Origin: Alterinioella nitratireducens
GTDB lineage: Bacteria; Pseudomonadota; Alphaproteobacteria; Rhodobacterales; Rhodobacteraceae
DNA: 64,000 nucleotides
Assembly: GCF_013155465.1 (NCBI RefSeq)
Contig: NZ_JABJVX010000003.1
Location: 1 to 64,000 of the forward strand
Direction of reading: 5' to 3'
Shown here: positions 27,164-50,358 of the stretch, one piece after another
How positions within the stretch are numbered: position 1 is the first letter of the stretch
Layout: each line of letters opens with the position of its first letter
The notes under the pieces: model-generated
Told to the model about the DNA's origin: nothing
The model's database searches: none
Seen by the model: the letters and a program-made list of their open reading frames with translations, nothing else
Position numbers and translations under genes: made by a program

Positions 27164-27182
27164 GGAGGAGGAGGAAGACGAC

Positions 27183-27554: not shown

Positions 27555-27812
27555 CGCGGCGACACGCGCAAGGGGCCTGCCATGACCGCGCTGAACGAGG
27601 GCACGGCGGTCGCGGCAGGCGACATGGGCTCGGGGTGTGACCTTTCGGCAGGTTGCCCGCCGGTTCGGAGTTGGGCGGCATCCGCCAGCCGGAATAAAGC
27701 CGACCTGCGACGAACCGACCGGAAAAAACGTTTCAAACTGGCGCCCCCGGCCCCTATCTGGAGGGAGTATCCTGACGGCCTGACGGGCCGTATCGCCAAG
27801 AGAGACGATTGC

Positions 27813-28505
27813 ATGGGGACCAAGGGGCAGAACACCGCCAACTGGATCGACAATTTCAAGGGGCTCGGGGGGCTGCCGGACGATCTGCGCGCCGAGCTCG
27901 AGGCCGGCAGCGAGATCGTCTCGGTTCCCTCGGGCACGGTGATATTCTCGCCGGGGCAGACGGCGGACAACCTGTGGCTGCTGCTGGACGGGACGGTGCG
28001 GGTTCAGCAGAAATCCGAGACCGGGCGCGACGTGTTCCTCTACCGGGTCCATGCCGGTGACAGCTGCGTGCTGACCACGGCCTGCATGCTGGCTTTCGAG
28101 GATTACTCGGCCGAGGGCACCGCCGAGACCGATGTCACCGCCGTTGCGATCCCGCGCCGGGTCTTCGACGACCTGGTCGCGAGATCGCCCGTCTTCCGCA
28201 CCTTCGTCTTCACCGCCTATTCGCGGCGCATCACCGACCTGTTCACCCTGATCGACGATATCGTATTCCAGCGCATGGATGTGCGCCTGGCCGCGCGGCT
28301 GCTGGAGCTTGCCGATGCGGACGGCATCGTCCACGCCACCCATGCCATGCTGGGAACCGAGCTTGGCACCGCGCGCGAAGTGGTGTCGCGCACCCTGTCC
28401 GAGTTTCACCGTCGCGGCTGGATCGAACAGGCCCGCGGCGAAGTGCGCCTGACCGACCGGGACGGGCTGGACCGTCTTGTGAAGACCTCTGGCGCGCAAG
28501 ACTGA
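27813..28505 (+). CDS. Crp/Fnr family regulator with C-x5-C sensor candidate
   Basis: 230 residues: cyclic-nucleotide-binding-like domain (about 20-140) and C-terminal HTH_Crp. The recognition helix TAREVVSRTLSEF carries the Arg-Glu...Arg combination known from CRP, matching GTGA half-sites. No FNR-type N-terminal Cys cluster; instead Cys85 and Cys91 (C-VLTTA-C) sit in the effector domain and could form a di- or tetrasulfide. Start ATG 27813 follows a 258-base gap; an upstream open frame to 27582 lacks protein-like composition. Likely controls this sulfur cluster through the palindromes at 25794 and 28526 (inference). Confidence 0.85.
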   Translation: MGTKGQNTANWIDNFKGLGGLPDDLRAELEAGSEIVSVPSGTVIFSPGQTADNLWLLLDGTVRVQQKSETGRDVFLYRVHAGDSCVLTTACMLAFEDYSAEGTAETDVTAVAIPRRVFDDLVARSPVFRTFVFTAYSRRITDLFTLIDDIVFQRMDVRLAARLLELADADGIVHATHAMLGTELGTAREVVSRTLSEFHRRGWIEQARGEVRLTDRDGLDRLVKTSGAQD

Positions 28506-28525
28506 AACCCGCGATTTCAGGGTCT

Positions 28526-28538
28526 GTGACCAAGTCAC
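28526..28538. promoter_or_regulatory. Crp/Fnr-type palindrome, site 2
   Basis: GTGAC-CAA-GTCAC, the same inverted repeat as at 25794-25806, lies 60 bases upstream of the DUF2892 gene that opens the YedE/persulfide dioxygenase operon. It follows the regulator's own stop by 20 bases. Confidence 0.6.
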
Positions 28539-28598
28539 CAAACTCTTCCGGGCCGGTCTGCTAGACCTTTGAAAACGATTCCCGAAGGAGGAGACGAC

Positions 28599-28811
28599 AT
28601 GACGAGGAATATGGGAAGGACCGACCGCGGCGCGCGCCTTGCGGTCGCAACGCTTTTGCTGGTTCTGGTGTTCGGCCTCGGTGTTCCGGGGGGTGGCCTG
28701 CTGGGCTGGCTCGCCGTGATCGTGGCCGCGATCATGGCTGTCACGGCTTTCGCGGGCCATTGTCCGCTCTACCGTGTCTTCGGTCTCCGGACCTGCGGGC
28801 TGAACCAATGA
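28599..28811 (+). CDS. DUF2892 (YgaP-like) small membrane protein
   Basis: 70 residues with the family pattern: N-terminal NMGRTDRGARL, two hydrophobic helices, and C-terminal GHCPLYRVFGLRTC. Such modules occur alone or fused to rhodanese (YgaP) and near sulfur-transport genes. Ribosome binding site AAGGAGGAG precedes ATG 28599. First gene of the operon under Crp-type site 2, overlapping the next gene. Confidence 0.85.
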   Translation: MTRNMGRTDRGARLAVATLLLVLVFGLGVPGGGLLGWLAVIVAAIMAVTAFAGHCPLYRVFGLRTCGLNQ

Positions 28812-29242
28812 TCGAGACCGCGTTCACCCCGCTGGCCTCGTTGTCGGGCGGCATCCTGATCGGTGTCGCCTCGACCCTGCTGATGCTGACGCTTGGACGT
28901 GTGATGGGGGCCACCGGCATCCTGGTCGGCCTGATCCAGCCCGCGACGTCCCGCGACTTTGCCTGGCGCGCGGCGCTTCTGGCCGGAATGGTCACCGGGC
29001 CCGCCCTGGTCTGGCTGGTCTCGGGCGAGATGCCCGCCATCGAGGTCCCGATCTCGACCGCAGCACTTGTCATCGGCGGTCTCATCGTCGGGGTCGGCGT
29101 CAGCTTCGGGTCGGGCTGCGCCTCGGGTCATGGCGTCTGCGGCATGGCGCGGCTCAGCCCGCGCTCCATCGTGGCGACGCTGACCTTCATGGCCGCCAGC
29201 TTCGCCACCGTCTACGTCATCCGCCACGTGATCGGGGGGTAA
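28808..29242 (+). CDS. YeeE/YedE family membrane protein, first half
   Basis: 144 residues, about four helices. The segment GSGCASGHGVCGMARLSPRS is the conserved Cys-containing motif of YeeE/YedE, proposed to move thiosulfate or sulfane sulfur through the membrane. Many bacteria encode the two halves separately; the partner is the next gene. Starts inside the stop of the DUF2892 gene. Confidence 0.9.
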   Translation: MIETAFTPLASLSGGILIGVASTLLMLTLGRVMGATGILVGLIQPATSRDFAWRAALLAGMVTGPALVWLVSGEMPAIEVPISTAALVIGGLIVGVGVSFGSGCASGHGVCGMARLSPRSIVATLTFMAASFATVYVIRHVIGG

Positions 29243-29245
29243 GCC

Positions 29246-29683
29246 ATGAAGCTGATCGCAACCTATCTCATCGGCCTGATCTTCGGGGTCGGAATCTTGA
29301 TCTCGGGCATGGCCAACCCTGCCAAGGTGCTGAATTTCTTCGACGTCGCCGGAACATGGGATCCGTCCCTGATCCTGGTGATGGGCGGCGCGCTGGTGAC
29401 GACCTTCGTCGGCTACAAGCTGGTCTTCGGACGCGCGGCCCCGATCTTCGAGCGCGACTTCTCGCTGCCGGGCGTGGCCCGGATCGACGCGCCGCTGATC
29501 GGCGGCTCGATCCTCTTCGGCGTCGGATGGGGCATCGTGGGGTTCTGTCCCGGCGGGGCGCTTCCCGCGCTCGGCACCGGACGGTGGGAGGTCTTCGCCT
29601 TCACCGCCGCCCTCATCGCCGGAATCGTCCTTGCACGGGCGATCCAATCCGCCGCCGCGCGCCGCGCGCAGCAGGCCACGTGA
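29246..29683 (+). CDS. YeeE/YedE (DUF6691) family membrane protein, second half
   Basis: 145 residues, four hydrophobic segments, with ISGMANPAKVLNFFDVAGTWDP early and the Cys motif GFCPGGALPALGTG late. Partner of the preceding half-protein; together they correspond to one full YeeE-type thiosulfate/sulfur channel. Three-base spacing to its partner. Confidence 0.9.
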   Translation: MKLIATYLIGLIFGVGILISGMANPAKVLNFFDVAGTWDPSLILVMGGALVTTFVGYKLVFGRAAPIFERDFSLPGVARIDAPLIGGSILFGVGWGIVGFCPGGALPALGTGRWEVFAFTAALIAGIVLARAIQSAAARRAQQAT

Positions 29684-29705
29684 CCAAACCCAAAGGAGTG
29701 ACATC

Positions 29706-30590
29706 ATGACAGGTTACCCCGTCCGGATGGACATCAAACCCCAGGTTCAGGCCTTCTTCGACGAGGCCACCAACACGATCAGCTATATCGTGAAGGATCC
29801 CACCTCCAACGCCTGTGCGATCGTCGACAGCGTCATGGACATAGACTATGCTGCGGGCCGGATCACCTATGACCACGCGGACGAGCTGATCCGCCAGATC
29901 GAGGCCCAGGGCCTCAAGCTGGAGTGGATCATCGAAACCCATGTCCACGCGGATCACCTGTCGGCGGCACCGTATATTCAGGGCAAACTGGGCGGCAAGA
30001 TCGGCATCGGCGCCAAGATCATGGTGGTCCAGGACACCTTCGGCAAGATCTTCAACGAAGGCACCGAGTTCCAGCGCGACGGCAGCCAGTTCGACGCCCT
30101 GTTCGAGGATGGCGACACCTACCAGATCGGCAACATGCCGGCCTTTGCCCTGTACACGCCCGGCCACACGCCCGCCTGCATGGTGCATGTGATGGGCGAT
30201 GCGGCTTTCGTAGGCGACACGCTGTTCATGCCCGATGGCGGCTCGGCGCGGGCGGATTTTCCCGGTGGCGATGCGGGCACGCTCTACGATTCGATCCAGA
30301 AGGTGCTGGCGCTGCCCGACGAGATGCGGCTTTTCATGTGCCACGATTACGGGCCGAACGGGCGCGACATCGCGTGGGAGACCACGGTGGGCGAGGAAAA
30401 GGCCCATAATATCCATGTCGGCGCGGGCAAGACGAAGGCGGACTTCGTCAAGTTCCGGACCGAGCGCGATGCGCAGCTTGCCATGCCCCGGCTGATCATC
30501 CCGTCGTTGCAGGTGAACATGCGCGCGGGCGAGGTTCCGACCGACAGGGACGGAAATCCGATGCTGAAGGTGCCGGTGAACGCGCTGTGA
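29706..30590 (+). CDS. Persulfide dioxygenase-like MBL-fold protein
   Basis: Metallo-beta-lactamase fold protein of 294 residues, ETHE1/Blh type, oxidising glutathione persulfide to sulfite with a single iron. Metal motif HVHADH in IIETHVHADHLSAA, downstream His in TPGHTPACM, Asp in VGDTLFMPD and His in MCHDYGP. The longer C-terminus (NIHVGAGKTKADF) fits Blh-type proteins. It would act on persulfide made by the SQR-like enzyme; DUF442 and SulP genes follow. Confidence 0.92.
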   Translation: MTGYPVRMDIKPQVQAFFDEATNTISYIVKDPTSNACAIVDSVMDIDYAAGRITYDHADELIRQIEAQGLKLEWIIETHVHADHLSAAPYIQGKLGGKIGIGAKIMVVQDTFGKIFNEGTEFQRDGSQFDALFEDGDTYQIGNMPAFALYTPGHTPACMVHVMGDAAFVGDTLFMPDGGSARADFPGGDAGTLYDSIQKVLALPDEMRLFMCHDYGPNGRDIAWETTVGEEKAHNIHVGAGKTKADFVKFRTERDAQLAMPRLIIPSLQVNMRAGEVPTDRDGNPMLKVPVNAL

Positions 30591-30631
30591 CAGCCCGCGC
30601 CCGCGCCTTCCCCAATCCGGAACGAGACAAG

Positions 30632-30964
30632 ATGGACCTGAAACGACTGACACCCGAGATCGCGGTGGCCGGGCAGATCATGCCCGAGGATGTCGCGGCG
30701 ATCGCCGCGGCGGGCTACCGTGCGATCATCTGCAACCGCCCCGATGACGAAGCTCCCGGCCAGCCGCCCTACGCGGCGATCGAGGCCGCGGCGCGCAAGG
30801 CCGGTATCGCCACCCGTTTTGTCCCCGTCGCCCCCGGCAAGATCGGCGCGGACGACGTTACCGCCTTCGCCGAGGCCCTGCGCGCGCTGCCCTCGCCGGT
30901 GCTGGCCTATTGCCGGTCGGGCGCGCGATCCTCGAGCCTCTGGACCCTGCACGGGGCCGCCTGA
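30632..30964 (+). CDS. DUF442 (TIGR01244) sulfurtransferase-like protein
   Basis: 110 residues with phosphatase/rhodanese-like loop YCRSGARSS. This domain is fused to persulfide dioxygenase in Blh proteins of other bacteria and separate here, directly downstream of it. Probable thiol sulfurtransferase in persulfide handling. Stop is immediately followed by the SulP start. Confidence 0.87.
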   Translation: MDLKRLTPEIAVAGQIMPEDVAAIAAAGYRAIICNRPDDEAPGQPPYAAIEAAARKAGIATRFVPVAPGKIGADDVTAFAEALRALPSPVLAYCRSGARSSSLWTLHGAA

Positions 30965-32707
30965 ATGATCCGCAGCCTGCGCCGCCATGTTCCCCTGCTC
31001 GACTGGGCGCCCGCCTATGACCGCACGGCGTTCTCGAATGACATGATCGCGGCGCTCGTCGTCACGATCATGCTGATCCCGCAATCGCTCGCCTATGCCT
31101 TGCTCGCGGGATTGCCGCCCGAGGCCGGCATCTACGCCTCCATCGCCCCCATCGTGCTCTACGCGATCTTCGGCACCAGCCGGGCCCTGGCCGTCGGGCC
31201 GGTGGCGGTGGTCTCGCTCCTGACCGCCTCGGCGGTCGGGCAGGTCGCGGATCAGGGCACCGCGGGCTATGCCGTGGCGGCCCTGACGCTGGCGGTGCTG
31301 TCGGGCGGGTTCCTCCTGCTGATGGGGGTCCTGCGCCTCGGGTTCCTGGCGAATTTCCTCAGCCATCCGGTGATCGCGGGCTTCATCACCGCGTCGGGCA
31401 TCCTGATCGCGGCGAGCCAGCTCAAGCATATCCTCGGCATCCCGGCCGAGGGCCACACCCTCCCCGAGCTCGTGCTTTCGCTTGGCGCGCATCTGGACCG
31501 GATCAACTGGATCACCGTAGCGCTCGGTCTTGCCGCCACCGGGTTTCTCTTCTGGGCGCGGGCGCATCTCAAGCCCCTGCTGCGGGCAATGGGCGCGCCC
31601 GCCCCCCTTGCGGATATCCTGACCAAGGCCGGGCCGGTCGCGGCGGTGGTGGCGACGACGCTCGCGGTCTGGGGTCTGGGTCTCGACCAGCGCGGGGTCG
31701 CCATTGTCGGCACGGTGCCGCAGGGCCTGCCGCCCCTGACCCTGCCGGGGCTGTCCCCCGACCTGCTGCGCGCCCTCGTGCTGCCCGCGATCCTGATCTC
31801 GGTCATCGGCTTTGTCGAAAGCGTTTCGGTGGCGCAGACCCTGGCGGCCAAGAAGCGTCAGCGCATCGACCCGGACCAGGAACTGATCGGGTTGGGCGCG
31901 GCCAATCTGGGCGCGGGCTTCACGGGCGGCTTTCCGGTCACCGGCGGCTTCTCGCGGTCGGTGGTGAATTTCGACGCCGGGGCCGAGACGCCCGCCGCCG
32001 GGATCTTCACCGCGCTCGGGCTGGCGATTGCGGCCGTGGCGCTGACACCGCTGGTCCATTACCTGCCCAAGGCCACCCTCGCGGCGACCATCATCGTGGC
32101 GGTTCTCAGCCTCGTGGACCTCTCGATCCTCAAGAAGACCTGGGGCTACGCGCGCGCCGATTTCGCCGCCGTCGCGGTGACGATTGTGCTGACCCTCGGC
32201 CTCGGTGTCGAGATCGGCGTGGCCGCGGGGGTTGCGCTTTCGGTGCTGCTGCATCTCTACCGGACCTCGCGGCCCCATGTCGCCGAACTGGGCCGCGTTC
32301 CGGGCACCGAGCACTTCCGCAATATCCATCGTCATTCGGTCGAGACCGACCCGACCCTGGTGAGCCTGCGCGTCGATGAGAGCCTTTATTTCGCCAATGC
32401 CCGTTTTCTCGAAGACCTGATCCAGAAACGCGTGACCGAGGGCTGCGACATCCGCAACGTGGTCTTGATGTTCTCGGCGGTGAACGAGGTCGATTATTCC
32501 GCGCTGGAAAGCCTCGAGGCGATCAACCTGCGGCTGCGCGACATGGGCGTCGGCCTGCATCTGTCCGAGGTCAAGGGCCCGGTGATGGACCGGCTGCACC
32601 GCAGCGATTTCCTTACCGCCCTGAACGGCCAGGTGTTCCTGTCGCAATACGAGGCATGGACCCGCCTGGCCCCGTCATCCGCGCCCGCCGCCGCAAGCGC
32701 AATCTGA
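30965..32707 (+). CDS. SulP (SLC26-type) anion transporter with STAS domain
   Basis: 580 residues: about 12-14 helices (residues 1-430) and a C-terminal STAS domain (about 450-565). Conserved MLIPQSLAYALLAGLPPEAGIYAS and GGFPVTGGFSRSVVNFDAGA match SulP permeases of sulfate or bicarbonate. As last gene of the persulfide operon it may export sulfite/sulfate or exchange it. No terminator is obvious after it. Confidence 0.92.
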   Translation: MIRSLRRHVPLLDWAPAYDRTAFSNDMIAALVVTIMLIPQSLAYALLAGLPPEAGIYASIAPIVLYAIFGTSRALAVGPVAVVSLLTASAVGQVADQGTAGYAVAALTLAVLSGGFLLLMGVLRLGFLANFLSHPVIAGFITASGILIAASQLKHILGIPAEGHTLPELVLSLGAHLDRINWITVALGLAATGFLFWARAHLKPLLRAMGAPAPLADILTKAGPVAAVVATTLAVWGLGLDQRGVAIVGTVPQGLPPLTLPGLSPDLLRALVLPAILISVIGFVESVSVAQTLAAKKRQRIDPDQELIGLGAANLGAGFTGGFPVTGGFSRSVVNFDAGAETPAAGIFTALGLAIAAVALTPLVHYLPKATLAATIIVAVLSLVDLSILKKTWGYARADFAAVAVTIVLTLGLGVEIGVAAGVALSVLLHLYRTSRPHVAELGRVPGTEHFRNIHRHSVETDPTLVSLRVDESLYFANARFLEDLIQKRVTEGCDIRNVVLMFSAVNEVDYSALESLEAINLRLRDMGVGLHLSEVKGPVMDRLHRSDFLTALNGQVFLSQYEAWTRLAPSSAPAAASAI

Positions 32708-32887: not shown

Positions 32888-33250
32888 ATGAGCGAGCTTT
32901 CCCAATACGCGATCCTTTTCGGGCTGAGTATCGGTGTATTCGGTCTCGTGCTCAGCCTTTACGGTCTGGCGCGGGCCATCGGGCGGGCGCGGGCGGAACC
33001 CGGCAAGGACGTGCCCGCCACCGCCGGTACCTTGTCGCGCGATCCGGTCTGGGTGCGCTATCATGCGCGCTATGCCGGTTACGCGCTGCTGTTCCTGGCC
33101 TTCGATATGGAGATGGCGTTCATGTATCCCTGGGCTGTGGTCTACCGCGAGGAAGGGCTGATCGCCTTGCTCGACATGGGGGTATTCCTGGCGATCCTGT
33201 TCCTGGGCCTGCTCTATGGCTGGAGCCAGGGCGCGTTGAGGCGGCAATGA
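32888..33250 (+). CDS. nuoA: NuoA-like subunit of a complex I-like complex
   Basis: 120 residues, three helices, with FDMEMAFMYPWAVV, matching the conserved acidic block of NuoA/ND3. The usual YECG loop between helices 1 and 2 is missing (here SRDPVWVRYHARY), so the conserved Cys is lost. Ribosome binding site AGGAGG lies eight bases before ATG 32888. First gene of an eight-gene operon encoding only membrane-arm subunits plus one unusual peripheral protein. Confidence 0.9.
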   Translation: MSELSQYAILFGLSIGVFGLVLSLYGLARAIGRARAEPGKDVPATAGTLSRDPVWVRYHARYAGYALLFLAFDMEMAFMYPWAVVYREEGLIALLDMGVFLAILFLGLLYGWSQGALRRQ

Positions 33251-35214
33251 CCTTGGCCGGGGCGCGCGAGGGCGCGATGTCCGGGATCAGGCGGGCGGTC
33301 GCGGCGGCCATGGCGCGCGATCTGTCGGCCTTCGTGCTGCCCGGCCCCTCTGTCGCGCGGGCGATGGGGCTCGATCTGGCCGGGTCGCACCTGCGGGTCG
33401 TGGGCACGCCGCGTCATGCCAACGTGCTGATCCTCGTCGGCCCCCTGCCTGACGGTCTGCGCGATGCCGCCGCCGTTACCTACGCGCAGATGCCGCGCCC
33501 GCGCGCGATCCTGACACTGGGCGCGGGCGACATCGCCCCGTTGCCCGATGCGGACGTGTCGGCCCCGCCGACACGGGCCGGGCTGCGATCCGGGCTGGCC
33601 GATCTGCGCCGCGTGATCGCCGCGGGCGCGTTTCGGACGGACAGCGGGGAGTTTACCGCCCCCGCACTTGAGGTGCGTGTGGAATACACCTGCCCGATGC
33701 ACCCCGAAATCATCCGCGACGCCCCCGGAGACTGCCCCAAATGCGGCATGACGCTGGTGCCGCGCGAAACGGCGTCCGATGGACATGGTGGGCACGGTGG
33801 CCACGACATGCCCCAGGAGGACAGGCCAAGCCCCGCCGAACACGCGCATGCGGGCCAAGCCGAGGACGCGGGCGGGGCGGGGGCATATACCTGCCCGATG
33901 CACCCCGAGGTGATCAGCGATGCACCGGGCAAGTGCCCCAAATGCGGCATGTTTCTGGTGAAGGCGGAGGAGGGGGAAAGCCACGGTCACGGGCATAGGC
34001 ATGGGCATGGCGGTCACGGTCACGGGCATGGCAGCGAAGCGCACGGAGCGCACGGAGCGCACGGTGCGCATGGGCATGGCGATCACGGCGGTCATGGCAA
34101 ACAGCAGGACCATTCCGGCCACGATGGCCACGATGGCCACGATGGGCATGCCGGACATGGCGGCCACTCCAAGGCCGCTATCGACGGGATCGAGCCGCAT
34201 TTCATGTCGATGGTCGAACTGACAGAAGGCCAGCCGCGCAGCAGCGACGGGTTGCAGATGGACTGGATCGAGGTGCCGTTCGGGCCGTTCTTTCCCGGCC
34301 TGCCCGCAGGGCTGCGCCTGACCCTGACGCTGGACGGCGATACCGTGGCGGGCAGCGAGGCCAGGAGCCTTGTGGGCAGGGCGGAGCTGGTGGATGGTCC
34401 GCAGATGACGGCGGGCGATTTCGTCGGCCGTCTGGCCGCGATGATGCCGCTCGGCCCGGTGGCCTATCGCACGCTGGCCTGCGCGGCGATCGAGGAGGCC
34501 TCCCGCGCCGACCCCGGCCAGGACGCGCGCCGTGGCCGCGCCGCCGCCGTGGAACGCGAGCGGATCGCAAGCCACCTGGGCTGGCTGGCCGAGTTCGGCC
34601 TGCAGTCGGGGTTTCTCTGGCTCGCCGCGCGGGCCAGGGCGTTGCAATTGGCTGTTCAAGGCGCTGACATTGACGGGATCGCCGCGCAGGCCGGGGCGAT
34701 CAGGGCGCTGATCCGCCGGGTCGAGACAGCGCCGCTGATGCGGATGCGGCTGGGACGCATCGCGCGCATCGGCAAGGACGCCCCGGCCAGCGGCCCCGTG
34801 GACCGGGCGCGGGGTGTCGGGTCGGATGCCCGCGCGGGCGATCCAACGCTGATTGCCCTCGGGTTCGAGATGTGCGTCCGAGAGGGCGGGGATGCGCTGG
34901 CCCGGCTGCGCCTTCGCTGCGATGAGATCGCCCAGAGCCTCGACCTGATCGCGGCGGCCGGGAGGATCGCCGTGCCGGAGGTGCCGGATGTGGAAACGGT
35001 GTCGGGCGAGGGCGCGGCAACCATCGAAACACCGCGCGGCGCGGCGCGGCTGCGCGTGAAGCTGACCGATGGCAAGGTGGTCGAGGCCGAGCTCGACACG
35101 CCGTCAGACGTGAACATCGCCCTTGTCGAAACGGTGACGGCGCAGCGGGAACTGGGCGATGCCTTGGCCGCTGTCGCCTCGCTCGACCTGTCGCCCTGGG
35201 AGGTGCGTGGATGA
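33247..35214 (+). CDS. Degenerate NuoB/NuoD-like fusion with two heavy-metal-binding domains and His-rich linker
   Basis: 655 residues. Residues about 10-125 follow the NuoB fold (ANVLILVGPLPDGL, YAQMPRPRAILTLGAGDI) but all Fe-S cluster Cys are gone (SCA to GAG; PGCPP absent). Two heavy-metal-binding domains follow at about 147-176 and 214-243 (each YTCPMHPE...CPKCGM), then a Gly/His-rich linker to about 313. Residues 317-655 resemble NuoD/hydrogenase large subunit, including PRGAARLRVKLTDGK and the C-terminal SLDLSPWEV, but the quinone-site HPSTHG is FFPGLP and no NiFe cysteines exist. It therefore appears to be a redox-inert, metal-binding replacement for the complex I connecting module. 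Overlaps neighbours by four bases. Confidence 0.8.
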   Translation: MTLAGAREGAMSGIRRAVAAAMARDLSAFVLPGPSVARAMGLDLAGSHLRVVGTPRHANVLILVGPLPDGLRDAAAVTYAQMPRPRAILTLGAGDIAPLPDADVSAPPTRAGLRSGLADLRRVIAAGAFRTDSGEFTAPALEVRVEYTCPMHPEIIRDAPGDCPKCGMTLVPRETASDGHGGHGGHDMPQEDRPSPAEHAHAGQAEDAGGAGAYTCPMHPEVISDAPGKCPKCGMFLVKAEEGESHGHGHRHGHGGHGHGHGSEAHGAHGAHGAHGHGDHGGHGKQQDHSGHDGHDGHDGHAGHGGHSKAAIDGIEPHFMSMVELTEGQPRSSDGLQMDWIEVPFGPFFPGLPAGLRLTLTLDGDTVAGSEARSLVGRAELVDGPQMTAGDFVGRLAAMMPLGPVAYRTLACAAIEEASRADPGQDARRGRAAAVERERIASHLGWLAEFGLQSGFLWLAARARALQLAVQGADIDGIAAQAGAIRALIRRVETAPLMRMRLGRIARIGKDAPASGPVDRARGVGSDARAGDPTLIALGFEMCVREGGDALARLRLRCDEIAQSLDLIAAAGRIAVPEVPDVETVSGEGAATIETPRGAARLRVKLTDGKVVEAELDTPSDVNIALVETVTAQRELGDALAAVASLDLSPWEVRG

Positions 35215-36110
35215 GCATTCTTGTCGTTCTCCTGTCGCTCGCCGCCGGGGCCTACGCGCTGGCCGTCATCGAACGATGGGCCGTGCACGGGCACCTGAGC
35301 CTGACCGGTCCGGCCTGGGCCGCACTCGCGCTTCTGGGGCGGGAATCGCTGCTGGCGCGCAAATCCGACCGGTTGTTCTTTGAGCTTGGGCCGGTGCTGC
35401 TATTGGTGGCGGGGCTGATGGCGGTGGCGGTGATCCCGCTGGCGCCGGGGCTCATCATCACCGACCTGGCCACCGGGGCGCTGTTTCTGAACGCCGCGCT
35501 GGCCTATGTGCTGGTGGCGCTGATCATGGCCGGTTGGGGTCCGAACGGGGCCTACGCCATGATCGCGGGCTGGCGGTTCCTGGGCCAGTTCATTGCCTAT
35601 GCCATGCTGATCGTGATGCCGATCACCGCCGTCGCCATGCGGGCGGAGTCGCTCTCGACGGTTGAGATCGTCACCTCGCAGGAACAACTCTGGAACGTGC
35701 TTTACCAGCCGATGGGGTTCATCCTCTTCGTCGTGGCGGCGATGGGGCTGGCCTGGTTGCCGCCGCTGGACCTGCCCGATGCGACCGGCGAATTGGCCGG
35801 AGGCGTCGAGGCGGAGTATACCGGCGTGCGGCTGGCTGTGCTGCGGCTGGCGCGGATGGTCATCATCCTGGCGCTGGCCGGGGCGACCGTGACCTTCTAC
35901 CTGGGCGGCTGGCTTGGCCCGTGGCTGCCGCCCTGGGCCTGGAGCGCGATCAAGATCCTGGCCGTGGCGGCGGCCATGCTGAGCATCGGGCGCTACATGC
36001 CGCGCATCCGCGAGGCGCGCTATCTGGCGCTGAGCTGGAAGCTGGGGATCTCGCTGGCGTTGGCCAATATCTTTGTCGTGGGCGTGATCGCGCTGGTGGT
36101 GCCGATATGA
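35211..36110 (+). CDS. nuoH: NuoH-like subunit
   Basis: 299 residues, about eight helices, shorter than usual NuoH (320-345). The signature region reads LPPLDLPDATGELAGGVEAEYTGVRLAV, keeping the Pro-Asp...Glu-Leu and GluTyr elements of the quinone-facing loop. In complex I this subunit links quinone reduction to the antiporter subunits. Its NuoD partner here is degenerate, so whether quinone is used is open. Confidence 0.9.
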   Translation: MSILVVLLSLAAGAYALAVIERWAVHGHLSLTGPAWAALALLGRESLLARKSDRLFFELGPVLLLVAGLMAVAVIPLAPGLIITDLATGALFLNAALAYVLVALIMAGWGPNGAYAMIAGWRFLGQFIAYAMLIVMPITAVAMRAESLSTVEIVTSQEQLWNVLYQPMGFILFVVAAMGLAWLPPLDLPDATGELAGGVEAEYTGVRLAVLRLARMVIILALAGATVTFYLGGWLGPWLPPWAWSAIKILAVAAAMLSIGRYMPRIREARYLALSWKLGISLALANIFVVGVIALVVPI

Positions 36111-36622
36111 CGGTTCAGATGATCTTTCTGGCGTTCTTCGGCGGCGCGGCTGTGTGGTTCGGCGTCGTGGTCTTCCGCACCCATTCGATGGTGCGCTCGG
36201 CGCTGGCGCTGCTGTTCTCGCAAACCGCGATCGGGGCGATGTTCCTGGTCATGCAGGCCGAGTTTCTGGGCGTGTTGCAGATCATGATGATGGCCACCGA
36301 GATGAGCGTGATGGCGATCTTCATGGTGATGTTCATGATGGATCCGGGCGGCATGGGCAAAATGGACATGACGCACCAGAAACGCCTGTCGCTCTGGGCC
36401 GGGGGCATCGGGCTGCTGGCCGCCTTGCTGCTGGTCTGGCTGCCCGATTGGAGTCCGGTCGCTCTGTCGGTGCCCGGTGCGCATGAACAGGCCGCCGATC
36501 TGGGCCGCGAATTGCTGGGCCGGTCGATGTTCATCTTCCAGTCGGCGGGGCTGACCATCCTGACGGCGATGATCGCGGCCACGATGGTGGCCATCGTCCC
36601 CAACGCGGAGCAGGGCAAATGA
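36107..36622 (+). CDS. nuoJ: NuoJ-like subunit
   Basis: 171 residues, five hydrophobic segments. The helix MQAEFLGVLQIMMMATEMSVMAIFMVMF corresponds to NuoJ helix 3, in which the usual VYAGAVMVL sequence is changed to IMMMATEMSVM and gains an acidic residue. The loop after it is shorter and Met-rich. Coupled by overlaps to nuoH and nuoK. Confidence 0.87.
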   Translation: MTVQMIFLAFFGGAAVWFGVVVFRTHSMVRSALALLFSQTAIGAMFLVMQAEFLGVLQIMMMATEMSVMAIFMVMFMMDPGGMGKMDMTHQKRLSLWAGGIGLLAALLLVWLPDWSPVALSVPGAHEQAADLGRELLGRSMFIFQSAGLTILTAMIAATMVAIVPNAEQGK

Positions 36623-36930
36623 TTGTGGAACTTCTGATCGCTCTCAGCGTCGGTGCGGGGCTGTTCGGTGTCGGGCTCTACGGCGCGCTGAGCCAGACCA
36701 ACCTGGTGATGATCGTCATGGGGGTCGAACTGATCCTGGCCGCGGCCCTGGTCAACCTCGTGGCCTTCTGGCGTTACCTGCATCCCGACGAGCCTGCGGG
36801 TCAGATGTTCGTGCTGATCGTCATGGCGGTGATGGCGGTCGAGATGGCGGTGGCCTTCGGTATCGCCATCGCCCGGTTCCGGGTGCGCGGCTCGGTCGAG
36901 ATGGAAGAAGCGCGCGAGTTGAAGGGATGA
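36619..36930 (+). CDS. nuoK: NuoK-like subunit
   Basis: 103 residues, three helices. Both membrane glutamates needed for proton transfer in NuoK are retained, in MGVELILAAALVNL and MAVEMAVAFG. This points to a functional ion path in the E-channel region despite degeneration of the peripheral arm. Overlaps nuoJ and nuoL. Confidence 0.92.
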   Translation: MIVELLIALSVGAGLFGVGLYGALSQTNLVMIVMGVELILAAALVNLVAFWRYLHPDEPAGQMFVLIVMAVMAVEMAVAFGIAIARFRVRGSVEMEEARELKG

Positions 36931-38822
36931 CGATGCTGGCACTCACCCTCCTCGCGCCGCTTCTGGCGGGGCTCGCGGCGCTGGCGCTGCGCCGCGCACC
37001 CGAAGCGATTGCGCTGGCGAGCGTTGGCCTCGGGTTTCTGGCGGCGATGGCGGTTCTAGCGGGCGCGATTGCCGGCGATGCGGTGGAACTGGTCCTGCCG
37101 GGCCTGCCGCAAATGCCGTTGCGGCTGGTCGTGACGCCGCTGACGGCGGTCATTTCGACCATGGTGGCGACGGTGGCGGCCTGCGTAGTGGTCTATGCGG
37201 TCGGTTACATGCGCAGCGACCCCGAAAGGCCGCGCTTTTTCGGCATCCTGCTGCTGTTTGTCGCCGCGATGCAGGCGCTGGTTCTGGCGGGCGACTGGAT
37301 CACCGTGCTGGCCGCGTGGGAGTTGATCGGCTTTTCCAGCTATCTGCTGATCGGCTTCTGGCATGGCCGTGACGGCGTGCCCGGTGCCGCGACGCGGGCG
37401 TTTCTCTATACCCGCAGCGCCGATCTGGGGCTTTATCTGGGGATTTTCGTTCTGATCGGCTGGGCCGGCAGCTCGGAGATTTCGGCCACGCTGGCGATCA
37501 CCGGCACACCGGCGCTGGTCGCCGGAGTGTTGTTGCTGATCGGCGCGATGGGCAAATCGGCGCAGGTGCCGTTGCAGGACTGGTTGCAGCGCGCCATGGC
37601 GGGGCCGACGCCGGTTTCGGCGCTGCTGCATTCCGCGACGCTGGTGGCGGCGGGGGCGATCCTGCTGATCCGGGTGGCGCCGATGTTGTCCGGCGGGGCT
37701 TTGCTGGCAATCGGGCTGGTGGGCGGCATAACGGCGGTCGTTGCCGGTCTGATCGCGCTGGCCGAGCGGGATCTGAAGCGGCTGCTGGCTGCCTCGACCT
37801 CCAGCCAGTACGGCCTGATGCTGCTGGCCATCGGCGCGGGCGTTCCGGTGGCGGCGCTGCTGCACCTGATCGCCCATGCGGCGATCAAGAGCACGCTGTT
37901 TCTGGGCGCGGGCGTGTTCCAGCATGACCGCGACAGCACCGACATGGAGGCGGTTGCGGGCGCGGGCCGGTCAAGACCTCTGATCCTGACGGGTTTCGGT
38001 CTTGCCGCGCTGGCGTTGGCGGGCATCCCGCCGCTGGCCGGGTTCTTTTCAAAGGACGCGATCCTTGCCGCCGCGCTGGCCGCCCCCGGTGCTGCGTGGC
38101 TGGCACCACTGGCGCTGGCGGGGACGGTGCTGACCGGGGCCTATATGGCGCGGGCGCTGCGGGTGCTGTGGTGGGGCGAGGCGCAGCCCGTTTCCGGCAG
38201 GGGCATGGGCTGGATGTCTGCGGGCATGGCGGTGCTGACGGCGCTGGCGGCGGGGCTTGGGTTCGCCTTCGTGCCGCTGGAACATCTGCTGGGCGCTGAA
38301 CTGCCGCCGGAAGGAACCGCGATGATCCTCGGGCTCGTGGCGGCGCTGAGCGGCCTGGTGCTGGGATGGTTCGTGACACCCGCCCGCCTGATGGGGCCGG
38401 TTCTGCCCTGGGCGCAGCGCGGCTTTGCCGTCGCGGGCGGGATGGACGGGCTGGTGCTGCGCCCGACACTCGCCATCGCCGCCGCCTGCGAGCGGTTTGA
38501 ACGGCACCTGCTGGCCGCGCAGCTCGGCCTTGTGCGCGTCCTCGGCCTTGGCACCGCATCCCGCACCGAGGCAGCCGACAATCGCCTTTACGCCGCGACC
38601 CTCGATCTGGGCCGGTTGAACCTGCGCTTGGGTGACAGCGCCGAGACCACCGACACAAAAGGCATCGACGGGCTGATCTTCGGCCTTGTCGACCGGACAA
38701 TCGCCGCCGGTCGCCGCCTGCGCCTGCTGCAAAGCGGGCTGATCCACCGCGAACTCGCCCTGACTGTCATGGGCATTGCCGTCATCGCGGCGGTGCTGCT
38801 GATCTTACCGATATCCTCCTGA
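36927..38822 (+). CDS. nuoL: NuoL-like antiporter subunit
   Basis: 631 residues with about 16 helices. The key Glu in WELIGFSSYLLIGFWH and the Lys in GKSAQVPLQDWLQRAMAGPTP are present, as is the His-containing SALLHSATLV. The C-terminal section includes the expected amphipathic lateral region. Expected to translocate protons or sodium. MrpA/DabB-type proteins are relatives, but the operon order nuoH-J-K-L-M-N favours a complex I-like membrane arm. Confidence 0.93.
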   Translation: MTMLALTLLAPLLAGLAALALRRAPEAIALASVGLGFLAAMAVLAGAIAGDAVELVLPGLPQMPLRLVVTPLTAVISTMVATVAACVVVYAVGYMRSDPERPRFFGILLLFVAAMQALVLAGDWITVLAAWELIGFSSYLLIGFWHGRDGVPGAATRAFLYTRSADLGLYLGIFVLIGWAGSSEISATLAITGTPALVAGVLLLIGAMGKSAQVPLQDWLQRAMAGPTPVSALLHSATLVAAGAILLIRVAPMLSGGALLAIGLVGGITAVVAGLIALAERDLKRLLAASTSSQYGLMLLAIGAGVPVAALLHLIAHAAIKSTLFLGAGVFQHDRDSTDMEAVAGAGRSRPLILTGFGLAALALAGIPPLAGFFSKDAILAAALAAPGAAWLAPLALAGTVLTGAYMARALRVLWWGEAQPVSGRGMGWMSAGMAVLTALAAGLGFAFVPLEHLLGAELPPEGTAMILGLVAALSGLVLGWFVTPARLMGPVLPWAQRGFAVAGGMDGLVLRPTLAIAAACERFERHLLAAQLGLVRVLGLGTASRTEAADNRLYAATLDLGRLNLRLGDSAETTDTKGIDGLIFGLVDRTIAAGRRLRLLQSGLIHRELALTVMGIAVIAAVLLILPISS

Positions 38823-38836: not shown

Positions 38837-40297
38837 ATGCCGCTTCTCTCGATCTCCGTCTTTCTGCCGCTCCTCGGTGGATTGCTGTTGATGGCGCTGC
38901 CGAACAGGTCGGCCCGTATCGCGCATGGCGTTTCCATCGCCACGACCGGGCTGACCTTCCTTGTGACGCTGGCCATCTGGGCGCGGGGCACGCTTCCGGG
39001 CGGTTTCGCGCAGGTCGAGGAGATCGCATGGATCCCGGCCATTGGTGCCGCCTACCGGCTGGGCATCGACGGGCTGAGCCTGCCGCTGATCGTGCTGACC
39101 TCGCTGCTGTTTTTCCTGTCGGCGATCTATGCCGCGCGGATCACCGACCGCCCGGCGGTCTTTGTCGCGCTGATGCTGATGCTGGAAACCGCCTCGATCG
39201 GCACCTTCGCGGCGCTGGATGCGCTCCTGTTCTACGTCTTCTTCGAGGTGTCGCTGGTGGGCATGTATTTCATGATCGTCGGCTGGGGCTATGAAGAGCG
39301 CCAGCGCGCCGGGTTGATGTTCTTCATCTACACGCTTCTGGGCTCGCTGCCGCTGTTGCTGGCGATCATCGGGCTCTATCTGGCCACCGGCACCTTTGAC
39401 ATGCGCCTGTGGATCGAGACCCCGCCGCTGACGGGCCTCGCGGCAATGCTGGCGCTGATCGCGATGCTGTTCACCTTCGCGGTCAAGATCCCGAGCTTTC
39501 CGGTGCATACCTGGCTGCCGGCGGCCCATGTGCAGGCCCCGACCGTCGGCAGCGTCATCCTGGCGGGCGTGATGCTGAAATTCGGCACCTATGGCCTCGT
39601 GCGCTTCGCATTGCAGATGACGCCTGACGCCTTTGCGCGGGCCGGTCTGGTGGTGCTGGCCTTCGGCGTGTTCAGCGCGCTTTACGGGGCTTTCGTCGCG
39701 CTGGCGCAGTCGGATCTGAAGAAGATGATCGCCTACACCTCGGTCAACCACATGGGCTATGTGGTGATCGGCGTGTCGGTGGCGGCGCTGACGCTGGACC
39801 CCGATCTGCGGGCGGTTGCGCTCAATGGGGCCACCTTGCAGATGGTCAGCCACGGCATCGTCACCGGGGCGCTGTTCTTCCTTGTCGGCATGTTGCAGTC
39901 GCGCGCCCATAGCCGCGAGATGGCGGATTTCGGGGGGTTGCTGGGGCAGGTGCCGTGGCTGGGCTGGGCATTTATCCTATCGGCCTTCGCCTCGCTGGGA
40001 CTTCCGGGGCTGGCGCATTTCCCGGCCGAGTTCCAGATTTTCCTGGCCACGCTGAACGCGCAGCCCTGGGCCATCGTCGCGATCATTGCCATCGTGGTGA
40101 CGGCGGGTCTGTATCTGCGCGCCATCGCGGCGGTATTCCTGGGCGAGCGGAACGAGAAATGGGCGGCGATGCCCGATCTCGACCGGGGCGAGATGCTGGC
40201 CATCGTGCCGCTGCTTGTCCTCATCATCGTGATCGGGGTCGCGCCATCGTGGTTGCTGAACATGATCGACGCGACGATGCGGGCGCTGCAATTCTGA
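38837..40297 (+). CDS. nuoM: NuoM-like antiporter subunit
   Basis: 486 residues, about 14 helices. Conserved Glu in YVFFEVSLVGMYFM and Lys in VKIPSFPVHTWLPAAHVQAP are both present, so the half-channels look intact. The gene starts 15 bases after nuoL with only a weak ribosome binding site (GAAAGACC) and its stop shares bases with the nuoN start. Confidence 0.93.
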   Translation: MPLLSISVFLPLLGGLLLMALPNRSARIAHGVSIATTGLTFLVTLAIWARGTLPGGFAQVEEIAWIPAIGAAYRLGIDGLSLPLIVLTSLLFFLSAIYAARITDRPAVFVALMLMLETASIGTFAALDALLFYVFFEVSLVGMYFMIVGWGYEERQRAGLMFFIYTLLGSLPLLLAIIGLYLATGTFDMRLWIETPPLTGLAAMLALIAMLFTFAVKIPSFPVHTWLPAAHVQAPTVGSVILAGVMLKFGTYGLVRFALQMTPDAFARAGLVVLAFGVFSALYGAFVALAQSDLKKMIAYTSVNHMGYVVIGVSVAALTLDPDLRAVALNGATLQMVSHGIVTGALFFLVGMLQSRAHSREMADFGGLLGQVPWLGWAFILSAFASLGLPGLAHFPAEFQIFLATLNAQPWAIVAIIAIVVTAGLYLRAIAAVFLGERNEKWAAMPDLDRGEMLAIVPLLVLIIVIGVAPSWLLNMIDATMRALQF

Positions 40298-41655
40298 TGG
40301 CGCGCGACCTGTCATTTCTGTTTCCCGAGCTGCTGCTGGCCTCCACGGTGGTGCTGATGCTGGTGGCCGAGATGCTGCGCGCGCCGCGTCTGGCGCTGGC
40401 GTTCGGGCTGATCGGGCTGGGCCTGTCCACCGCGCTGACCCTTCCGCTGCTGGAGGCCGATACGAGCGTCTTCGGCGGCACCTACCGCGTCGATCTGCTG
40501 TCGGGCTGGGCCAAGCTGATCTTGCTGCCGGGCACCGCGCTGGCGCTTTTGATGACGCGGGCCGAGATCGCCGGGAAGGACCGCGAGGGCAGCGTTTATG
40601 TGCTGCTGTGCCTGGTGACGCTGGGGGCGCTGATGCTGGCGGGCGGCGGCGACATGATGCTGCTGGTCCTTGGTGTGGTGCTGACGGGGCTGGGATCCTT
40701 CGCGATGGTGGCCTGGCCGCGCGACGATGCCGCGACCGAGGCAGCGATGAAATACCTGGTCTTCGGGGCCGTCACCGGATCGGTGATGATCTACGGGCTG
40801 ACCTTCTGGTTCGGTGGTGCCGGATCGACGCTATTTTCCGAGCTTGGTGCGCTTCAGGACAAGCCGCTGATTGCGCTGGCGGGCCTGGTCGCGGTGCTGA
40901 TCGGGCTGGGCTACAAGGCGGCGCTGGTGCCGTTCCAGTTCTGGGCGCCTGACGCCTATGACGGCGCCCCGGTCTCGGTCGCGGCGTTCCTGTCGGTCAT
41001 CACCAAGGTGGCCGCGATTTTTGCCTTCGCGCAGGTGCTGCGCGATCTGCCGGTCGCCACCGGCTGGCCCGTCGTCGTCGCGCTGATCGCGGCGGTGACG
41101 ATGACATTCGGCTACCTGGCGGCCCTGGTGCAGAGCAATGTGGTGCGGCTGCTGGCCTATTCCTCGGTGGCGCAGGCGGGCTATTTCATGCTTGGGATCG
41201 TAGCGCTTGGCACCAGCCCGCTGGCCCTGCCATCGGTGATCGTGTTCGGCGCGGCCTATGTGGCGATGAACCTCGGGGCCTTTGCCGTCATCATGGTCGC
41301 GGGGCGCGATCTGGACGATTTCAAGGGGTTCGGCCGCGCGCGCCCGGTGATCGGCGTGGCCATGGTCGTGTTTCTGCTGTCGCTCACCGGTATTCCGCCG
41401 CTCTTCGGCTTTGTCGGCAAGGTGCTACTGTTCGGGGCCGCGATCGAGGCGGGCTATCTGTGGCTGGCGGTGATCGGCATCCTCAACAGCGTGTTGGCGC
41501 TGGCGGTCTATCTGCGCATCGTGGTGCCGATGTATCAGGCGCGCGAGGGCGAAGCGGTTCGGGCGGAGGTCGCGCTGCCGCTATTGGTCGTGCTCGGGGC
41601 GACCGCGCTGGTCACGGCGCTGATGGGGCTGTTCGCGGGGGTCTTTCCCGGCTGA
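40297..41655 (+). CDS. nuoN: NuoN-like antiporter subunit lacking the helix-5 glutamate
   Basis: 452 residues, about 14 helices. The Lys-containing block GYKAALVPFQFWAPDAYDGA is conserved. In helix 5, where NuoN normally reads LGLELxSL with an essential Glu, this protein reads LGVVLTGL (Glu replaced by Val), so its proton entry path may be disabled or altered. Last gene of the complex I-like operon; a hairpin follows. Confidence 0.92.
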   Translation: MARDLSFLFPELLLASTVVLMLVAEMLRAPRLALAFGLIGLGLSTALTLPLLEADTSVFGGTYRVDLLSGWAKLILLPGTALALLMTRAEIAGKDREGSVYVLLCLVTLGALMLAGGGDMMLLVLGVVLTGLGSFAMVAWPRDDAATEAAMKYLVFGAVTGSVMIYGLTFWFGGAGSTLFSELGALQDKPLIALAGLVAVLIGLGYKAALVPFQFWAPDAYDGAPVSVAAFLSVITKVAAIFAFAQVLRDLPVATGWPVVVALIAAVTMTFGYLAALVQSNVVRLLAYSSVAQAGYFMLGIVALGTSPLALPSVIVFGAAYVAMNLGAFAVIMVAGRDLDDFKGFGRARPVIGVAMVVFLLSLTGIPPLFGFVGKVLLFGAAIEAGYLWLAVIGILNSVLALAVYLRIVVPMYQAREGEAVRAEVALPLLVVLGATALVTALMGLFAGVFPG

Positions 41656-44249: not shown

Positions 44250-46616
44250 TTGAGAACATTGACCCTTGAGGTCCGCGGGCTGTTCGAGGAACTCGATCAC
44301 CTCGCGGTCGAACGCCATTTGTCGGCCCTGGGCGGCGTGCACCGCGCCGAAGCGAACCCGGCCTCGGCCAGCGTGACAGTCCACTATGACGAGACGGTGC
44401 TGGGCGAGGGCGCGCTGCGCGAGGCGATCGAATCCTGCGGCTTCCACTGCACGGGCGAACGGGTTCCGAACCATGTCTGCAAGATGGACCACTCGGGCCA
44501 TGACGGCCATTCGGCGCATGGCGGAAAGGCCCCTGCCGGCCATGACGCGATGGCGCATGAGATGGGCCATGGCGGCGGCATGGACATGGCCGGGATGGTC
44601 CGCGACATGCGCAACCGCTTCTGGGTGGCGCTGCTCTTCACCATCCCGATCTTCATCTATTCGCCGATGGGGGGCATGTTCACGCCGCCCGCGCCGCCTT
44701 TCGGTCTGCGGCTGGACCTGTGGCTGTTCTTCCTGGGCAGTGCCGCGATCATCTGGCCTAGCTGGCCGTTCTTCGTCGCCGCCTGGCGGGCCTTGCGCAA
44801 CGGCATCCTGAACATGGCGGTGCTGGTCGTGCTGTCGGTTGGCACGGGCTATGTGTTCAGCGTCGGCTCGACCTTCTTCTTTCCCGGCGTGCAGTTCTAC
44901 GAGGCCGTGGCGGTGCTGCTGGTCTTCATCCTGCTGGGGCACTGGCTGGAGATGCGCGCGCGGGCAGGGGCCTCGGCGGCGATCCGGGCGCTTCTCGATC
45001 TTGCGCCGCCGATGGCGACCGTCATCCGCGACGGGCAGGAAGTCGAGGTGCCGACCTCGGACGTGCTGGAGGGCGAGGTCGTCCTGATCCGGCCCGGCAA
45101 CAAGATCCCCGTCGATGGCGAGGTTATCGAAGGCACGTCGTTGGTGGACGAATCCATGCTGACGGGCGAATCCATGCCGGTGAACAAGGCCGTGGGCGAC
45201 ACCGTGATCGGCGCCACGATCAATAAAAGCGGCAGTTTCCGCTACCGCGCCACCAAGGTGGGTGCCGATACCGCGCTGGCGCAGATCGTCAAGCTGGTGC
45301 AGGAGGCGCAGAACTCCAAGGCGCCCGCGCAGCTTCTGGCCGACCGCGCATCGCAATGGCTGGTGCTGATCGCCATCGTGATCGGGCTTGCGACCTTCGC
45401 GGTCTGGTTCTGGTGGATCGGTTCGCCGCTTCTCTTCGCGCTGACGCTGACGATTACCGTTTTCGTGATCGCCTGTCCCGATGCGCTGGGGCTGGCCACG
45501 CCGATGGCGGTGATGGTCGGCACCGGGCTGGGGGCGCAGCACGGCATCCTGTTCAAGAACGCGGGCGCGTTGGAAGACGCGACCAAGCTCGATGTGATCG
45601 TTTTCGACAAGACCGGCACCCTGACCATGGGCCAGCCGCGCGTGGTCGAGGTGGTGTCCGGTGAGGGCAGCACCGAAGATGATGCGTTGCGGGCCGCGGC
45701 GGCGGTCGATCGCGGATCGGACCACCCGCTTGCATTGGCCATTGTCGAGCGCGCCGCGGATCTCGACGTGCCGCAGATGGCCGGGTTCCTCAACCTCGAA
45801 GGCCGGGGCGCGCGCGCCGAGATCGCAGGCGAAACCGTGCTGGTCGGGAACCGGCGGCTGATGGACGAGGAAGGCATCGACATAGGTTCCCTGACCGCCG
45901 AGGCCGAACGCCTCAAGGGCGAGGGCCGCACCGTCGTGCATGTGGCGCAGGCGGGCCGGATGCTGGGCCTGATCGCCATTGCCGACGCACCGCGCCCGAG
46001 CGCCATGGCCGCCGTGGCCAAGCTGCGCGAACGCGGCGTCGAGGTGGCGATGCTGACCGGTGACAATGAAGGCACGGCGCGCCGCATCGCGGGCGAGTTG
46101 GGCATCGACATGGTGCTGGCCGACGTGCTGCCGGGCCAGAAGGCCGAGAAGGTGAAGGAGCTTCAGGCCCAGGGCAAAAAGGTCGGCATGGTCGGTGACG
46201 GCGTCAACGACGCGCCCGCGCTGACCCAGGCCGATGTCGGCTTTGCCATCGGCGCGGGCACCGACGTGGCGATGGAAAGCGCCGATGTCGTGCTGATGAA
46301 GAGCGATCCCTACGATGTCGTGGGGGCCATCGAGCTGTCGCGCGCCACCTTGCGCAAGATGCACCAGAACCTGTTCTGGGCGGTGGCCTACAACGTGATC
46401 GCCTTCCCGATGGCGGCGGGCGTGTTCTACCCGCTGATCATCAGCCCCGCCGTCGCGGCGATTGCCATGTCGGGCAGCTCGGCCCTGGTCGCCGTCAACG
46501 CACTGCTGCTGAAACGGACCCGGCTGGAAGGCATTGGCGCGGGCAAGGCCGCCGCCAATGCCGCGAAGACGGGCCAAGGCCCGCTGCACGCGTCGCATCC
46601 GCAGAAATCACATTGA
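44250..46616 (+). CDS. P1B-type heavy-metal ATPase with CPD membrane motif
   Basis: 788 residues. The N-terminal HMA-like fold (1-70) lacks CxxC ([10 protein letters not shown] in its place), followed by a His/Met-rich stretch ([14 protein letters not shown]). Catalytic motifs are complete: TGES, phosphorylated Asp in DKTGTLT, SDHPLA, GDGVND. The transmembrane metal motif is CPD ([13 protein letters not shown]) rather than CPC or CPH, while helices 7-8 keep YN and MSGSS as in Cu+ pumps. Ion specificity is therefore uncertain. Start TTG 44250 with GGAG upstream. Only 16 bases separate it from the YfcC gene, suggesting one transcript with the arginine deiminase genes. Confidence 0.9.
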
Positions 46617-46632
46617 AAGAGGGGGACTCGAT

Positions 46633-50355: not shown

Positions 50356-50358
50356 CCG

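Follow-up and report, generated by a model that had tools for sequence, protein, structure and literature searches.

Among the known relatives of respiratory complex I (NDH-1), group 4 membrane-bound hydrogenases and Ehr complexes keep iron-sulfur (Fe-S) subunits and a redox partner. Ehr complexes are reported to lack the Ni-Fe ligands (PMC6349859), and Mrp antiporters are described as having homologous antiporter-like subunits and no redox chemistry (PMC7419157). For complex I itself, the way in which events at the quinone site drive remote proton transfer is presented as still disputed (PMC10212512). The closest described system is the "partial NDH-1", a nuoAHJKLMN operon of marine actinomycetes. 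Its seven membrane nuo genes were reported in Salinispora by Penn and Jensen 2012 (PMC3314556) as horizontally acquired and were connected with marine adaptation, and partial NDH-1 nuo genes have been reported in Kocuria and Streptomyces as well (PMC6002675, PMC4018334). In a further report (PMC6676996) the order is given as nuoA, a hypothetical protein and nuoH to nuoN, osmoadaptation is favoured, and one carrier strain is said to come from copper-rich mine fluids; Nuo subunits on plasmids in 57 species are mentioned in PMC12361115. The subject of the present work is an eight-gene cassette found in Alterinioella nitratireducens, within the first 64,000 nucleotides of contig NZ_JABJVX010000003.1 (assembly GCF_013155465.1), a stretch called here the window. 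The cassette has the order nuoA-X-nuoH-J-K-L-M-N, its genes overlap or are closely spaced, and X stands where the published operon has the hypothetical protein. In the sections of the partial NDH-1 papers that were available, this protein is not identified and copper is not tied to the function of the operon. No paper naming the identity of X, the copper link or the methionines discussed below was found in the accessible text of the open-access literature, methionine not being a focus of the search. The operon layout is already published; the methionine pattern is new here.

The cassette is tentatively considered to be a redox-free relative of complex I working as a proton-gradient-driven Cu(I) machine, a reading that falls somewhat short of an even chance. 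The clearest new finding is that, as aligned to E. coli, cassette-specific methionines cluster in the predicted E-channel subunits NuoA, NuoJ and NuoK. When a column was required to have Met in 11 or all 12 of the cassettes and in no more than 10% of 31 canonical sequences, 11 columns qualified in NuoJ, two in NuoA and three in NuoK. A wider count was made on distinct sequences only (three of the 45 loci had no NuoJ and four no NuoK). In NuoJ it gave Met at M28 in 32/32, at M61, M69, M73 and M141 in 33/33, at M77, M86 and M88 in 34/34, at M62 and M66 in 32/33 and at M78 in 33/34 sequences. NuoA M76 and M79 were present in 31/31 and M74 in 26/31, and NuoK M31 and M76 in 28/28 and M72 in 27/28. 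Canonical sequences have Met at the near-invariant positions in 0-3 of 31 cases (0 or 1 for those in transmembrane helix 3 (TM3) of NuoJ; for NuoA, none at the M76 position and two at the M79 position). When columns identical in the 12 cassettes are considered, Met occupies 14 of 52 in NuoA, NuoJ and NuoK versus 5 of 209 in NuoH, NuoL, NuoM and NuoN (p 1.7e-7, the columns not being independent). Compared with four canonical sets, the Met content is lower in NuoH, NuoL, NuoM and NuoN and about doubled in NuoJ and NuoK. On an ideal helix, M62, M66, M69, M73 and M77 of NuoJ TM3 lie within an 80-degree arc, forming a stripe on one face, and NuoK M72 and M76 flank E75 (E. coli E72). In all three subunits near-invariant methionines are thus placed, by alignment, next to acidic residues of the predicted E-channel. 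Tyr59 of NuoJ is Met in 11/12 cassettes.

Protein X was described in the original prediction, made from the letters of this DNA, as a 655-residue fusion of a NuoB-like part, two heavy-metal-binding domains (HMBD), a His-rich linker and a NuoD-like part, and the translated open reading frame is as described there. Applied to the single X sequence, Pfam gave two HMBD with 96.9 bits and Complex1_49kDa with 45.3 bits (cut-off of 24), and its NuoB family (Oxidored_q6) remained under the cut-off with 13.8 bits (E 0.049). The claimed relationship of the flanking parts to NuoB and NuoD was confirmed by family profiles built from relatives. The N-part profile matched NuoB/NDUFS7 chains with E down to 7.4e-8 over profile positions of about 43-95, and MbhJ with E 2e-7; the top score of the C-part profile was with the membrane-bound hydrogenase large subunit 6cfw_L (E 4.5e-24), and NdhH (E 1.2e-20) and NuoD chains were matched too. 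BLASTP of X against the canonical NuoB and NuoD of its own genome gave 9e-6 and 1.8e-5 respectively. In an AlphaFold2 model the NuoD-like part is good (pLDDT 74-97 in ten-residue blocks from 381 to 640), and the modelled C-part fits formate hydrogenlyase subunit 5 (7z0s_E) with Z 30.8 over 297 residues and mycobacterial NuoD (8e9h_D) with Z 30.5 over 300 residues. A predicted fold is claimed for the NuoD-like part only, and the NuoB-like part is considered homologous by sequence.

An assembly or sequencing error was considered as the source of the fusion and is ruled out, since many records independent of each other show both this fusion and this order of genes. A decaying pseudogene is ruled out by ratios of nonsynonymous to synonymous substitution (dN/dS) below 1 wherever computable. 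In three pairwise comparisons the ratio was 0.16-0.51 for X as a whole and its single segments, and the Nuo subunits of the cassette had 0.04-0.32; the first HMBD versus L003 and the linker versus L013 yielded no ratio. The original prediction also had X replacing separate NuoB, NuoC and NuoD between NuoA and NuoH. The position holds, with NuoA directly upstream and NuoH directly downstream, but the replacement does not hold in full. No NuoC family was among the Pfam matches of X or of the cassette genes, and replacement of the complex I of the host is ruled out by canonical nuo genes present on another contig of the same genome (A, B, D, H, J, K, L, M and N found).

The state of the cofactor sites was read in an alignment of 10 X proteins with five canonical NuoB and five canonical NuoD. 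The ligands of cluster N2 in NuoB are missing in all 10 (the C63/C64 pair falls in a gap, C129 and C158 are substituted), and the quinone-site motif HPSTHG of NuoD is FFPGLP or a close variant in every one of them. Both losses had been predicted from the single protein, as had a redox-inert peripheral arm, and both extend to all 10 aligned proteins. X is best read as a putative redox-inert hub. The inserted metal ligands were likewise found as predicted, in Pfam, profile matches and linker counts. Matches of the HMBDs to the corresponding domains in the copper ATPases 3rfu and 8ovl have E 9.3e-7 and 1.1e-6, and 10 of 19 X proteins carry 1-5 HMBDs. In all 19 the fraction of His, Met and Cys is higher in the linker (0.14-0.35) than in the rest of X (0.02-0.09). 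Linkers measure 18 to 332 residues, lengths which are approximate as the ends were set by motif patterns; those of Halomonas KO116, Roseivivax and Acuticoccus have just 18-34 residues with 3-5 Met and are weak evidence taken alone. The further proposal of the original prediction, a peripheral arm which may bind metal and may gate the membrane arm or couple it, is a fair one. NuoJ carries a His-rich tail in Roseivivax, Acuticoccus, Halomonas KO116 and Arthrobacter and a His/Met-rich insert in Rhodopseudomonas. Such NuoJ tails or inserts (L098:9561-10463, L138:12741-13451, L096:9660-10613) look as if the metal binding of the hub had shifted to NuoJ.

As judged from residues read in 12 cassettes under E. 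coli numbering, the antiporter-like subunits NuoL, NuoM and NuoN together with NuoK retain most of the proton-path residues. NuoL E144, K229, H338 and K342, NuoM K234, K265 and E407, NuoN K247 and K395 and NuoK E36 and E72 are kept in 12/12; NuoL K399 is kept in 11/12, and at NuoM E144 five have Glu and seven Asp. Among the 28 distinct NuoK sequences of the wider set, one has Asp at E72. NuoH is shorter at the N-terminus than in E. coli; its E157 is lost in 8/12 and E218 in 12/12, and E216 is Asp in four and neither acid in eight. E228 is kept in 11/12, and E220 is Glu or Asp in 11/12. Two single columns, NuoM M189 (9/12) and NuoL H607 (10/12), are also cassette-specific.

The cassette shares NuoA, NuoH, NuoJ, NuoK, NuoL, NuoM and NuoN (all present by Pfam) and the NuoB- and NuoD-like parts of X with respiratory complex I. 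It differs from it in having no NuoC, NuoE, NuoF, NuoG or NuoI (the genes run without a gap for others, and record annotation agrees), no N2 ligands or quinone motif, a shorter NuoH with E157, E216 and E218 mostly lost, no NuoN Glu133 in 12/12 and extra Met in NuoA, NuoJ and NuoK. With the group 4 hydrogenases and Ehr complexes it has the NuoD-like part in common, to which Mbh is the best match; unlike them, it has NuoA and neither an Fe-S protein nor the cluster cysteines of the small subunit. NuoH, NuoA and the NuoB/NuoD hub set it apart from Mrp, and the NuoL-, NuoM-, NuoN- and NuoK-like genes score higher with Nuo than with Mrp models. The likeness to the copper efflux ATPase 3rfu, an ATP-driven single polypeptide, lies in the HMBD motif.

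Cassettes in this order were found in alpha- and gammaproteobacteria and in Actinomycetota, often on plasmids. A scan of genome contigs gave 61 loci, and 23 of them (L003-L025) were taken as true relatives; the remaining ones share the HMBD and linker region, judged by matched residues. Sixteen of the 23 have an uninterrupted reading frame for each of the eight genes; in L010, L012, L019 and L022-L025 a contig end truncates the cassette or reading frames are split. Besides these, relatives occur in at least 12 plasmid records, and the cassette was seen on plasmids of Sulfitobacter, Paracoccus, Roseovarius, Nitratireductor, Thioclava and two Rubrobacter. The distribution in sampled genomes, the own genome included, is patchy: 14 of 394 in the family, one strong match (the own genome) among 385 in the class and five strong ones among 398 in the phylum, including one from outside the class. 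In the class sample, three matches scored near 60 bits and were not counted as cassettes; one of these recurred in the phylum sample. Viral spread was considered as well, and one scan of the viral collection gave no relative. Searches with NuoH in plasmids revealed a second branch in Rhodopseudomonas, Halomonas KO116, Roseivivax, Acuticoccus and Mycobacterium paragordonae, with further members in M. avium pMAH135, Gordonia, Arthrobacter FB24, Curtobacterium and Pseudonocardia. Profiles of the NuoB-like and NuoD-like halves (open reading frames from 11 loci) matched X of Halomonas with 5.3e-6 and 1.5e-21, of Roseivivax with 1.2e-9 and 4.5e-9 and of M. paragordonae with 4.1e-7 and 3.7e-5; as they also match canonical and hydrogenase-like subunits, these matches show superfamily membership. 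In a NuoM tree 19 cassettes form one clade (support 98/98) apart from five canonical NuoM, and six actinomycete cassettes and two from Rubrobacter fall within it; the outgroup branches are long and the root serves for drawing only. On a plasmid of Xanthobacter autotrophicus Py2 (L067:15642-16333) a truncated remnant is left, consisting of nuoA and the N-terminal 110 residues of X; the record annotates the X piece as NiFe-hydrogenase III large subunit-like. The own genome of the cassette also has a NuoA-like remnant (C15:9917-10102, minus strand), which is interrupted by a TGA.

Most of the genomic context of the cassette concerns resistance to copper or other metals. A set of 12 queries for copper or metal resistance found a match in 17 of 20 plasmid loci, 10 of 24 non-plasmid loci and 27 of 44 loci overall; L067 and L137 (annotated as short pieces) were excluded from these counts. 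None of 10 control pieces matched. They represent seven distinct loci, namely the canonical nuo of the own genome, one locus from E. coli, three canonical nuo loci on plasmids and two hydrogenase-like loci (17/20 versus 0/7, Fisher p 1.4e-4). The queries came partly from tested loci (L064, L065, L066, L098, L133 and the window) and include self-matches, with which the product names in the records agree; L020, L023, L024 and L068 are alike around the ATPase, so that not every locus counts as independent. Genes for Mn/Fe transporters, a type outside the query set, are present in control locus L141. Adjoining the cassettes of Rubrobacter, Pseudonocardia and Curtobacterium, or near them, there are genes for an ATPase, for a regulator of the metal-sensitive type and for a small protein that binds copper or heavy metals, and multicopper oxidases are found near several cassettes. 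In the window the nearest metal-resistance gene is the ATPase at 44250, about 2.6 kb downstream of the cassette.

The operon has no electron donor, Fe-S path or quinone site, so whatever work it does must be powered by an ion gradient or by the binding of metal. Copper as the substrate, its direction and the coupling are what we infer from the anatomy, conservation and context described above. Export is the probable direction of the putative Cu(I) transport, because the peripheral arm of bacterial complex I is located on the cytoplasmic side. The X hub would collect Cu(I) in the cytoplasm and pass it to a path of Met and carboxylates through NuoA, NuoJ and NuoK, and proton inflow through NuoL, NuoM and NuoN would drive it out. 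The coupling of complex I would thereby be reversed, with a copper site in the place of the quinone site. Copper may be moved by the complex, or it may act as its switch. With greater reserve still, the cassette could be regarded as a further kind of bacterial copper pump besides P-type ATPases and resistance-nodulation-division (RND) systems, gradient-driven and plasmid-borne in two phyla, in which the E-channel would have turned into a Met-lined path for Cu(I) and the redox arm into a hub that collects metal. If this is true, a natural relative with an E-channel and an antiporter arm and without redox or quinone chemistry would isolate the coupling step, which could then be tested with a different substrate. 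Copper-resistance islands would gain a new part, and the operon known from several actinomycetes would have an alternative to its "marine adaptation" reading that can be put to the test.

Several observations weigh against the copper machine. The E-channel placement of the methionines depends on alignment to E. coli and the canonical controls comprise 4 or 31 sequences; NuoJ M61 and M78 lie outside the stripe on the ideal helix, and the conserved methionines are not independent events, because all cassettes belong to a single lineage. HMBDs are absent from nine of 19 X proteins (their linkers are His-rich or contain Met), and the Rhodopseudomonas cassette is without X, nuoA and nuoH adjoining. 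The NuoB-like part modelled alone has pLDDT 44 and is hardly covered in the structure comparison. In the proton path, NuoL H334 is kept in 9/12 (Gln in three), NuoN E133 and H305 are lost in 12/12 and NuoN K217 is kept in 10/12; changes of NuoN E133 are reported to have little effect in E. coli (PMC3046159). Plasmid loci L076, L077 and L135 (3/20) have no metal-gene match, nor have 14 of 24 non-plasmid loci, many of which are short contigs ending near the cassette. Matches in L016 (24% identity), L075 and L096 are to RND pumps and that in L099 is to an ATPase of unknown metal. Moreover, cells that also hold a copper ATPase are not obviously in need of a second exporter.

The rival which survives best, though it is rather unlikely, is a copper-gated cation/proton antiporter, in which Mrp-like exchange of Na+, K+ or H+ would be switched on by metal binding in the hub under metal or salt stress. 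The retention of most proton-path residues in the antiporter-like subunits speaks for it, many of the listed plasmid hosts come from seawater, sediment or vents, and Penn and Jensen 2012 and later papers tie the seven actinomycete nuo genes to adaptation to marine or osmotic conditions; osmoadaptation, as published, is a copper-free version of this rival. It leaves unexplained, however, the near-invariant Met in NuoA, NuoJ and NuoK and the metal-resistance neighbours of 17 of the 20 plasmid loci, from both phyla. It is far less probable that the complex is still a redox machine, in which copper at the HMBDs, linker or methionines replaces the Fe-S clusters and quinone and Cu(I)/Cu(II) chemistry is coupled to proton pumping. 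Copper-type ligands in hub and membrane and the multicopper oxidases near several loci would suit it, but the operon has no electron donor or acceptor subunit, the Fe-S ligands and quinone motif are gone, HMBDs are absent from nearly half of the X proteins, and linkers so variable in length are unlike a fixed electron path. Least probable is a passive copper buffer, in which the hub and His tails merely sequester metal at the membrane, as the variable, ligand-rich linkers would allow, for seven membrane genes with mostly conserved proton residues and low dN/dS would make a costly structural platform.

Table 1. Features of the cassette and of the copper-type ATPase in the window
Feature	Coordinates	Strand	Basis
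NuoA-like membrane subunit	32888..33250	+	Oxidored_q4 82.4 bits
NuoA residues 74-79: Met 74, 76, 79 around D73/E75 (E. coli D79/E81)	33107..33124	+	alignment
X hub protein, 655 amino acids (aa), NuoB-like / HMBD / His-rich / NuoD-like	33247..35214	+	open reading frame, Pfam, family profiles
NuoB-like part of X (aa 1-143), cluster cysteines gone	33247..33675	+	family profile and alignment
First HMBD of X (about aa 147-172)	33685..33762	+	Pfam and profile match
Second HMBD of X (aa 214-239)	33886..33963	+	Pfam and profile match
His-rich linker of X (aa 240-318)	33964..34200	+	sequence, His/Met/Cys count
NuoD-like part of X (aa 319-655), quinone motif gone	34201..35211	+	profile, model, alignment
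NuoH-like subunit, N-terminal region shorter	35211..36110	+	Pfam, alignment
NuoJ-like subunit	36107..36622	+	Pfam, scanned from upstream in-frame start
NuoJ residues 61-78 (TM3): Met 61, 62, 66, 69, 73, 77, 78	36287..36340	+	alignment
NuoK-like subunit	36619..36930	+	Pfam
NuoK M31 and M72/M76 beside E37/E75 (E. coli E36/E72)	within 36619..36930	+	alignment
NuoL-like antiporter subunit	36927..38822	+	Pfam, Nuo vs Mrp models
NuoM-like antiporter subunit	38837..40297	+	Pfam, Nuo vs Mrp models
NuoN-like antiporter subunit	40297..41655	+	Pfam, Nuo vs Mrp models
Copper-type P-type ATPase	44250..46616	+	TIGR01511 above cut-off

The usual transmembrane motif of copper-type P-type ATPases is CPC or CPH. 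The ATPase of the window has CPD at this position and no CxxC pair within its first 200 residues. CPD is common to the copies in L003, L008, L009, L020, L023, L024, L068 and L073, and the actinomycete copies in L134, L136 and L139 have CPC. Upstream of the cassette (25862-32707), scanning found a sulfide:quinone oxidoreductase-like flavoprotein, a CRP/FNR regulator and a SulP transporter, accompanied by what we take to be two YeeE-like proteins and a metallo-beta-lactamase-fold protein like persulfide dioxygenase. The ATPase is followed (46600-54500) by arginine deiminase pathway genes, a short-chain dehydrogenase/reductase (SDR) family oxidoreductase and a cyclopropane fatty acid synthase, and genes similar to these stand next to the ATPase on a plasmid of Sulfitobacter dubius.

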